This document shows positions 30,971 to 32,725 of a stretch of DNA of 64,000 nucleotides, in pieces (position 1 is the first letter of the stretch; each line of letters starts with the position of its first letter). A program made the translations under genes and the position numbers. The stretch covers positions 62,001 to 126,000 of the forward strand of contig CADAEH010000003.1 of assembly GCA_902786855.1 (NCBI GenBank), read 5' to 3'. This DNA comes from an uncultured Eubacteriales bacterium. GTDB lineage: Bacteria > Bacillota > Clostridia > Peptostreptococcales > Anaerovoracaceae. The notes under the pieces are model-generated. The model saw only the letters and a program-made list of their open reading frames with translations, ran no database searches and was not told the origin of the DNA.

Positions 30971-32419
30971 TTACTGATCTTCTCCGAATTCCGCCTTGTA
31001 TGCCTCGATCAGCTTCTCCGGCCAGTCTGATACCGGTTCGAGTTTTCCTGTAAAGAATCTCAATGTAGCCGGCTCATGAACGAACCTCAGTCCGCCAATC
31101 AGCTCTCTGTGGTCGTATACCCACTTTACCCTGTCTATGACGTACTCGACCTGAGACAGTGTGAATACTCTTCTCGGCAGCGCCAGCCTGACAAGTTCCA
31201 TCGAAGCGATCCTCTCGCTTCCGTCCGGATTTCTCTCCTCTGAAAGAGTTCCTCTCTCCATGCCGCGTATGCCTCCGCAGAGGTAGAAAGCGCATGTAAG
31301 TGCACCCGCCGGGTATTCTTCCTGTGGTATATGCGGTGCGAACTGCAGAGCGTCGACGTGAGCACCAAGTCCTCCGCCCGGAGTGATCATCGGTACACCG
31401 TACTCTGACAGCTTGTTTACGCAGTGCTCAATGAACAACGGTCCCTGAGAGATGATGTCCATCTCCATCGATTCGTCAAATCCGACTGTCATGGCTTCCA
31501 TCTCACGCACAGACATTCCGCCGTATGTCAGGAATCCCTCATACATAGTTACCATGTCTTCCATCGAATGGAACATCTCTCTGTCCCTGATCATGATAGC
31601 TCCGCCGCGGGCAAAGCCGAATTTTCTCGCAGAAAAGTATATGATATCGAACTGGTTAGCAATCTCCATCGTGATCGCACGTACGGACATATCTTTGCGC
31701 TTTTCGTCGCGCACCTTGATAAAGTACAGATTGTCCTGCAGCAGAGAGGCATCAAGTACAGTGACGATCCCGTGCTTCCTTGCGATCGCGCATGCTTCCT
31801 TGAAGTTGTCGACTGATACCGGCTGGCCGCCGATCAGATTGGTTCCTGCCTCAAGACGCATGAAAGCGATGTTTTCCGCACCCTCTTTTTCTATGCACGC
31901 CTCAAGCTTATCAAGATCTATGTCTCCCTTGAACGGAAGATCACTGCTGGATTCGAGTCCCTCATCCTTGACAAGCTCTTCTACGTGTCCGCCGAGCCTT
32001 GTGATGTGCGCTTTGGCTGTAGTGAAGTGATAGTTCATGATAACGCAGCTGCCGGGCTTGACGAATCTGAGTGCAAGAATATTCTCACAGGCCCTGCCCT
32101 GGTGTGCAGGCAGGCAGTACTTCATGCCGAAGATCTCTCTCAGCTTGGCTCTCATGCGATAGAACGATTCGCTCCCTGCATAAGCATCATCCGGCATCAT
32201 CATTCCGGCAAGCATCTTATCACTCATGGCGTTTACGCCCGAGTCGGTGAGCATATCCATAAAGATATCCCCGTTGTGCAGCCTGAAAGTGTTGAAGCCG
32301 GCCTTCCTCATCTTAGACAGCCTCTGGTCAGCAGGCAGCAGATTGAGCTGCTGTACTATCTTGACCTTGTGCATCTCCATTGGAATAGGTTCGTGATCGT
32401 AGAATTTGATTGCGGGCAT
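30971..32419 (-). CDS. tyrosine phenol-lyase/tryptophanase-family PLP enzyme (tyrosine phenol-lyase-like)
   Basis: A 482-residue beta-eliminating lyase of the TPL/TnaA family (TPL: L-tyrosine to phenol, pyruvate and ammonia, reversible). The PLP lysine is Lys266 in YFSARKFGFARGG; DAYAGSESFY, AHQGRACEN, NLIGGQPVS and RLALPRRVFT match family blocks. Compared from memory with Citrobacter TPL, Thr133 (TPL Thr124; Asp in TnaA) and Arg389 (TPL Arg381; Ile in TnaA) fit a TPL rather than a tryptophanase. Oddities: the conserved Arg that contacts the PLP O3' (TPL Arg217) is Leu226, the Lys before the PLP Lys is Arg, and the GGH segment is GGL. It is expressed behind a six-tyrosine leader peptide and terminator. 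Exact substrate unproven. Confidence 0.85.
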   Translation of the reverse strand: MPAIKFYDHEPIPMEMHKVKIVQQLNLLPADQRLSKMRKAGFNTFRLHNGDIFMDMLTDSGVNAMSDKMLAGMMMPDDAYAGSESFYRMRAKLREIFGMKYCLPAHQGRACENILALRFVKPGSCVIMNYHFTTAKAHITRLGGHVEELVKDEGLESSSDLPFKGDIDLDKLEACIEKEGAENIAFMRLEAGTNLIGGQPVSVDNFKEACAIARKHGIVTVLDASLLQDNLYFIKVRDEKRKDMSVRAITMEIANQFDIIYFSARKFGFARGGAIMIRDREMFHSMEDMVTMYEGFLTYGGMSVREMEAMTVGFDESMEMDIISQGPLFIEHCVNKLSEYGVPMITPGGGLGAHVDALQFAPHIPQEEYPAGALTCAFYLCGGIRGMERGTLSEERNPDGSERIASMELVRLALPRRVFTLSQVEYVIDRVKWVYDHRELIGGLRFVHEPATLRFFTGKLEPVSDWPEKLIEAYKAEFGEDQ

Positions 32420-32456: not shown

Positions 32457-32498
32457 AAAAATAAATATCGCCCCGCGGCTGCCTGCTGCGGAGCGATA
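32457..32498 (-). terminator. leader terminator (attenuator) before the tyrosine phenol-lyase-like gene
   Basis: On the minus strand TATCGC pairs with GCGATA (32493-32498 with 32466-32471), extended inward by a four-pair and a two-pair helix around mismatches. It is followed by TTTATTTTT, a U-rich tract, and lies 38 bases before the lyase start, hence inside the leader. Confidence 0.8.
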
Positions 32499-32542: not shown

Positions 32543-32617
32543 TCACAGCAAAACAGCTACCTCGGAGCGGTAGTAGTAATAATAGTATTCTGCTGCAGAT
32601 CTGATGTTGAACTTCAT
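32543..32617 (-). CDS. 24-residue leader peptide with six consecutive tyrosines
   Basis: A short ORF, too small for routine gene callers: ATG at 32617, stop TGA at 32543-32545. Residues 1-10 read MKFNIRSAAE, residues 11-16 are six tyrosines (codons TAC TAT TAT TAC TAC TAC), and residues 17-24 read RSEVAVLL. An AAAGG element lies about 11 bases upstream, a little far but usable. It sits between a good promoter and an intrinsic terminator that precedes a tyrosine phenol-lyase-like gene. This is the layout of amino-acid attenuation leaders (known for his, trp, phe and leu operons). Six tyrosines in a row by chance in exactly this place is very unlikely, so I infer tyrosine sensing; function is not shown. 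Confidence 0.8.
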   Translation of the reverse strand: MKFNIRSAAEYYYYYYRSEVAVLL

Positions 32618-32659: not shown

Positions 32660-32688
32660 AATTTAGCATATGATTTTGTAAAAATCAA
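32660..32688 (-). promoter_or_regulatory. promoter of the tyrosine leader and lyase transcript
   Basis: Minus strand TTGATT (32683-32688), 17-bp spacer, TAAATT (32660-32665). Transcription would begin near 32653, giving a leader of about 235 bases before the lyase start. Confidence 0.75.
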
Positions 32689-32725
32689 CAAATAACGCAT
32701 ATGTTCATTTTTTTAACCAAAACTG

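Follow-up and report, generated by a model that had tools for sequence, protein, structure and literature searches.

On its minus strand, the window (the whole 64,000-nt stretch of DNA analysed) carries, in this order, a promoter-like site, a short leader ORF, an intrinsic terminator and a gene for a tyrosine phenol-lyase (TPL)-like enzyme (Table 1). The initial annotation had described a 24-codon ORF with six Tyr codons, a promoter before it and a terminator after it, and both the translation of 32543-32617 (-) and a search for the sites agreed with this reading; TTTATTTTT lies directly 3' of the terminator hairpin at 32498-32466 (-). The fold of 32650-32420 (-) had a z of -2.81, with 1 of 200 shuffles equally stable. 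A simple promoter/terminator scan of the window reported neither the promoter-like site nor the terminator hairpin, and an Rfam scan of the window at gathering thresholds gave no match, hence no T-box ahead of the window gene. An EamA gene lies upstream.

Table 1 Features of the leader locus in the window.
Feature	Position	Strand	Remarks
Leader peptide ORF	32543..32617	-	MKFNIRSAAEYYYYYYRSEVAVLL*, 24 codons; predicted, read from the sequence
Six Tyr control codons	32570..32587	-	TAC TAT TAT TAC TAC TAC, codons 11-16
Sigma-70-like promoter	32660..32688	-	TTGATT-17 bp-TAAATT; 8/12 consensus bases
Inverted repeat over the -35 box	32675..32692	.	TTTGT-N8-ACAAA; possible operator
Region 1	32586..32597	-	5' arm of the 1:2 pause hairpin
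Region 2	32544..32558	-	AGCTGTTTTGCTGTG; alternative partner of regions 1 and 3; overlaps the leader stop codon
Region 3	32477..32490	-	Antiterminator partner, in the 5' arm and loop of the terminator
Intrinsic terminator	32457..32498	-	3:4 hairpin 32498-32466 and T tract 32465-32457
Tyrosine phenol-lyase/tryptophanase-family PLP enzyme gene	30971..32419	-	Gene predicted to be regulated; 482 aa

Conservation and folding of the leader

The TPL-like gene was searched for in 100 genomes, 48 of which were genus genomes. Long orthologues were present in 26 of these 48, the window's included, the others being 82-91% identical; the G023 orthologue is split close to the 3' end. Metagenome-assembled genomes labelled Mogibacterium sp. 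(from goat and sheep gut) or uncultured Clostridiales bacterium carry close relatives of the gene. We compared the 5' leaders of related genomes, as the initial annotation had proposed, and found a leader with 5-8 consecutive Tyr codons in each of the 23 genus genomes, the window's among them, for which 500 nt of upstream sequence was available. A 24th leader (G015) sits at the edge of a contig other than that of the gene, which it is presumed to adjoin. The assembly of G001 contains 4 nt upstream of the gene, and that of G040 contains 251 nt up to the contig end, which hold no leader, are partly foreign-looking and, as we take it, partly resemble the end of a group II intron. The set of 24 leaders used below excludes L018 (4 nt upstream), L022 (the G040 locus) and L021 (180 nt; its leader is on another contig, and L088 was used instead). 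The leader is still there in G005, in which the TPL-like gene is broken and which also has a tyrA gene with a Tyr leader. Outside the genus, no leader was seen in the upstream DNA read for the homologues L058-L063, L065, L066 and L069 (173 nt for L060), nor for three of the four outside-genus loci L027-L030 (L027, L029 and L030). At the fourth, L028 (G091), the TPL-like gene is 55% identical, and a short frame that includes six Tyr codons (KYYYYYYTECSVS) lies about 496 nt ahead of it.

By a loose pattern, a promoter-like site with 17-bp spacing lies 99-128 nt before the Tyr run in 23 of the 24 TPL-like leaders, and the L023 leader has a spacing of 16 bp. Both Tyr codons are used (TAC 86, TAT 67 over 26 leaders, two of which are not on an intact TPL-like gene). 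The inverted repeat TTTGT-N8-ACAAA was found in 17/24 TPL-like leaders and ahead of the tyrA leaders L072 and L035, but not of the third one tested, L031; it may be an operator for some repressor.

One alternative is that a chance Tyr run lies in an untranslated 5' region, followed by the ordinary terminator of the upstream gene. The EamA gene, which ends some 110 nt ahead of the start of the leader, would suit this, and although five TAY codons in a row are found at a single site in the 2.9-Mb assembly (2 overlapping matches), the same assembly contains 3 occurrences of the backwards control pattern, so that the Tyr run alone is insufficient against chance. The initial annotation had called chance unlikely; the conclusion stands, because conservation of the leader in 24 genus genomes excludes chance, whereas the Tyr run by itself would not have done so. 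The Tyr/Phe content of leaders also fits the downstream gene, and the alternative helices covary (see below). We regard this alternative as extremely improbable.

Over the 24 leaders, 97.1% of cells were paired in the 3:4 terminator, 7 of its 10 pairs were changed on both sides, and none of 500 shuffles scored as high. The 2:3 antiterminator had 98.1% of cells paired and 3 of 13 pairs doubly changed (5/500 shuffles as high). The 1:2 hairpin (95.8% paired) is left untouched by the covariation test because it is nearly invariant, its doubly changed pairs being matched by 171 of 500 shuffles. A masking model gave the 3:4 terminator in 24/24 leaders when region 2 was hidden, and 1:2 together with 3:4 in 23/24 when the ribosome was absent. 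With region 1 hidden, as in the stalled state, the 2:3 antiterminator won in 18/24 leaders. The window leader was among the others: its stalled-state equilibrium fold keeps the terminator (14 pairs vs 0), and five more of the 24 leaders kept the terminator or were mixed. The leaders of the G037 tyrA gene and of the broken G005 gene likewise gave the terminator or a mixed equilibrium fold in the stalled state. The two window helices are close in strength (2:3 -22.5, 3:4 -23.4), and antitermination in the window leader would depend on 2:3 forming before 3:4, which it could do. Overall, the leaders have the parts of a classical attenuator, namely a leader ORF carrying consecutive control codons (its translation being predicted), an intrinsic terminator before the structural gene, and a mutually exclusive antiterminator helix sharing region 3, which does not win in the window's own stalled-state fold.

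These parts suggest the following mechanism. A shortage of charged tRNA-Tyr would stall the ribosome on the Tyr codons, so that it covers region 1; region 2 would then pair with region 3 as an antiterminator, and RNA polymerase would continue into the TPL-like gene. With enough tyrosine, the ribosome would move on to the stop codon within region 2 and cover this region, leaving the 3:4 terminator to form. An untranslated leader would form 1:2 and 3:4, and transcription would stop. The net effect would be that the TPL-like gene is switched on under tyrosine shortage. Attenuation through Tyr codons, as claimed in the initial annotation, gains support from conservation in the genus, covariation, the frame-shifted tails and the presence of the same module on other Tyr genes (see below); overlooked there was that such control, which would switch the gene on at low charged tRNA-Tyr, is the opposite of what a tyrosine-degrading lyase needs. 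Leader translation, stalling, termination and the direction of the enzyme are what we infer here, while anatomy, conservation, covariation and the gene set are based on sequence. We consider it highly probable that the leader is a Tyr-specific classical ribosome-mediated attenuator and that the role of the TPL-like enzyme is most likely to supply tyrosine and not to break it down.

A different kind of leader is known from the same enzyme family, E. coli tnaA being induced by tryptophan via a 24-residue leader peptide. Free tyrosine could similarly stall a nascent peptide at the stop codon and induce a catabolic TPL, an alternative suggested by the tryptophanase/TPL family of the downstream gene and by a window leader similar in length to that of E. 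coli. However, what follows the Tyr run (in the window, GGTAGCTGTTTTGCTGTGAG) is conserved as RNA across three reading frames. Region 2 is in one frame in 18/24 leaders and in a second frame in four (L002, L011, L020 and L026), and it lies behind an in-frame stop in 2/24 (L015 and L017); the frames of L012 and L025 were assigned by their VAVLL tails. The stop codon is found 9 to 48 nt past the Tyr run in the 24 TPL-like leaders. That region 2 is kept as RNA though its frame varies argues against an arrest peptide, and a TnaC-type peptide was rejected since the tails vary in frame and length and share no conserved C-terminal peptide. In addition, a ribosome at the stop codon would be expected to mask region 2 and so favour termination, an intrinsic terminator is in place, and the module is also found before tyrA and tyrS. 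Induction by a tyrosine arrest peptide is therefore very unlikely.

The module on other genes and T-boxes outside the genus

A covariance model (R1) was built from the leaders; it was trained on Tyr leaders, so its matches lean Tyr-rich. It matched in 30 of the 48 genus genomes. The module precedes tyrS in nine genus genomes (leader MNTHRLVAAIYYYDGASIEA and variants), and the one tyrS behind a leader that was tested (L173) scored 405 bits against TIGR00234. Among 30 tyrS loci read, a YYY leader was present in 12, with three more carriers in G036, G010 and G001, while 18 of the 30 showed none; the tyrS gene of the window's own genome has no Tyr leader. The module also precedes tyrA in G037 and G005 of the genus and in G282 and G305 of the wider family, and the G017 tyrA gene has a Tyr-rich leader as well. 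At eight other tyrA loci (L032-L034 and L036-L040) no Tyr/Phe leader was found in the upstream DNA read (for L034 only to the contig start), and these genes look embedded in a gene cluster. In G013 the module precedes an ABC_sub_bind gene (PF04392), read as an amino-acid ABC transporter gene, whose product reached 284 bits against the TrpX equivalog and missed its cut-off of 390.

Several single loci deserve mention. The G037 tyrA gene behind its leader has an in-frame TGA near the start (L072, about 1656-1690), which is either real decay or an assembly error. The same genome has two Tyr-leader attenuators with no tyrosine gene adjoining (L165 on C75 and L166 on C69), the former followed by a second terminator-like hairpin, and a further Tyr-leader attenuator lies at a contig end in G035 (L168, C35).

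In the wider family, R1 matched in 34 of 197 genomes. We read 27 family loci, of which 25 precede a DAHP synthase-like gene and two precede tyrA (both confirmed). The 25 calls were made by a shared motif, with L229, L237 and L246 confirmed by HMM. At least two Phe codons were found in the control stretch of 26/27 DAHP synthase leaders (several rows being near copies), compared to 0/24 TPL, 0/5 tyrA and 0/15 tyrS leaders; one tyrA and two tyrS leaders have one Phe. Tyr/Phe-rich frames also occur at L245, L247 and L248, the latter two outside the 27 DAHP synthase rows. The mixed Tyr/Phe leaders before DAHP synthase-like genes (L229-L259) come from many genera of the family, and their codon content tracks the pathway branch. 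Overall, control codons match the pathway, with Tyr before tyrA, tyrS and the TPL-like gene, and Tyr and Phe before DAHP synthase. In an order-level sample of 247 genomes, all 20 with R1 matches came from this family, whose share of the 247 is not given.

Outside the genus, Rfam T-boxes (102-113 bits) were found upstream of five TPL-like genes (L027, L065, L066, L146 and L149). When aligned to the model, the specifier was UAC (Tyr) in 5/5 and its distance to the following stem was constant; in L027 and L149 one base is missing between GAA and UAC, so that the specifier reading rests on the alignment. No prephenate dehydrogenase match was found in the genomes of L065 and L066, and the L027 genome has one. 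In a tree of 29 proteins, which like the residue table (see below) includes 12 of 26 genus proteins and neither L149 nor L150, the 12 leader-bearing genes formed one group (support 88/81) and four T-box genes fell in two places. The regulator labels need three changes on this tree, a number that fits independent gains as well as one gain plus losses. Similar to the leader attenuator, the Tyr T-box is predicted to raise expression under tyrosine shortage. This logic, ON when starved, is common to the leader, tyrA, tyrS and the Tyr T-boxes, and points to a part for the TPL-like enzyme in tyrosine supply.

The enzyme and its metabolic setting

The window's genome has no chorismate synthase match, while such a match was found in 22/48 genus genomes and 14/14 controls. 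Prephenate dehydrogenase (PF02153) was above the cut-off in 21/48 genus genomes and strong (E < 1e-15) in 13/48, and only these 13 were counted as positive; the window's genome (G000) has no strong match. Three of the eight weak matches are in gene-positive genomes (G043, G027 and G018) and five in gene-negative ones. The three former proteins were rejected as prephenate dehydrogenases, being glycerol-3-phosphate dehydrogenases instead, and so were two sub-threshold matches in G000, one a glycerol-3-phosphate dehydrogenase and the other ProC. A prephenate dehydratase-like gene is kept in G000 (C28:3854-4417; E 9.7e-51), in which neither chorismate synthase nor prephenate dehydrogenase was found.

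Chorismate synthase was lacking in 21/27 gene-positive compared to 5/21 gene-negative genomes (p = 3.5e-4, shared ancestry ignored), and in 8/10 vs 2/9 of genomes at least 90% complete (p = 0.023, shared ancestry ignored). Strong prephenate dehydrogenase was lacking in 22/27 vs 13/21, which is not significant (Fisher p = 0.19), and prephenate dehydrogenase was lacking in 8/10 vs 3/9 of genomes at least 90% complete (p = 0.07). In these comparisons, all of which ignore shared ancestry, the 27 gene-positive genomes include G034 (a 76-aa edge fragment), those counted as gene-negative include G005 (broken), G028 (a 53-aa remnant) and G017 (a 36% relative), and many assemblies are incomplete. Five gene-positive genomes also have tyrA.

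The adjoining downstream gene does look like TPL, as the initial annotation had said: its product belongs to Beta_elim_lyase (PF01212; E 3e-46) and its best PDB matches are tyrosine phenol-lyases. It scored 563 bits against the tryptophanase subfamily NF009709 (cut-off 285) and 435 bits against the NCBI tyrosine phenol-lyase equivalog, below the cut-off of 720.7. In C. freundii TPL numbering, Y71, R100, T124, N185, D214, K257, M379, R381, R404, F448 and F449 are kept in 23/23 clade members examined, including K257, which we take to be the Schiff-base Lys and which is conserved in the window enzyme, whereas two changes are fixed in 23/23 (R217 to L, K256 to R). We take T124, M379, R381 and F448 to be TPL-type aryl-side residues, and R217 and K256 to be PLP-pocket positions. 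The outgroups L155-L157 have D, V, I/V and H at the four aryl-side positions and are presumably tryptophanase-like. That the clade keeps these residues while the outgroups differ makes TPL-type aryl recognition likely, with an altered PLP pocket.

An alternative explanation is that the attenuator is as described and the enzyme has a role other than tyrosine supply, such as a different substrate or a catabolic or signalling use at times of starvation. The two fixed changes in the PLP pocket and the score under the TPL equivalog cut-off could both be read in this way, as could the homologues L058-L063: their genomes show a prephenate dehydrogenase match (a partial one for L061), and no leader and no T-box was seen in the DNA read upstream of these genes (173 nt for L060, which is outside the T-box sources). 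Against it stand the four TPL-type residues kept in 23/23, the control of the gene by Tyr starvation through two unrelated devices with three changes on the tree, and the concentration of the gene where chorismate synthase was unmatched. We therefore hold another role to be possible but rather unlikely.

Tyrosine supply by the TPL-like enzyme could possibly proceed from phenol. The chances seem about even for a broader proposal, namely that a diverged TPL branch in gut bacteria whose shikimate pathway has been lost would act as a tyrosine synthase on scavenged phenol, replacing prephenate dehydrogenase, under Tyr-starvation control via ribosome attenuator and T-boxes. If true, this would be a route to tyrosine from phenol for such bacteria. 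Regulation is used here to predict that an enzyme known for tyrosine breakdown supplies tyrosine instead.

Relation to known systems

TnaC of the tna operon is an arrest peptide that senses free Trp, is Rho-dependent and induces a catabolic gene. As here, a leader peptide precedes a gene of the same enzyme family; arrest and catabolic induction are features of TnaC. A Tyr-specific T-box has the same physiological input and output as the leader, but is a tRNA-binding RNA in which leader translation is not involved. PMC1262725 (2005) states that T-boxes control the tyrosine genes and that classical attenuation acts on none of the Firmicutes aminoacyl-tRNA synthetase genes. The excerpts of PMC9413887 report His-leader attenuators in some Firmicutes lineages without a histidine T-box, likewise classical attenuation in Bacillota, with histidine and different genes. 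In PMC8632094, the section on the uORFC-13-1 motif places a uORF with Phe codons and a terminator before aroF (DAHP synthase) in Acholeplasma. This is likewise an aromatic-codon uORF, but its codons (Phe), lineage and sequence differ, and no tyrosine leader is described in that section. Titles and abstract openings of the papers found among open-access PMC full texts mention neither a tyrosine leader-peptide attenuator nor a T-box on a TPL gene, although earlier reports may exist.

The classical attenuators (trp, his, phe, leu and thr operons; gamma-proteobacterial pheST) share with the present leader an ORF with a run of codons for the sensed amino acid, 2:3 and 3:4 helices with a putative 1:2 hairpin, an intrinsic terminator and a stop codon in or near region 2. 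They also have in common a biosynthetic or synthetase gene downstream; here tyrosine is sensed, the target is of the TPL family and the host belongs to the Bacillota. If true, tyrosine would join the amino acids sensed by leader-peptide attenuation, and one Bacillota family has a set of aromatic attenuators in which the codon content follows the gene served. The attenuator is thus a tyrosine member of a known mechanism, with an unexpected target and lineage.
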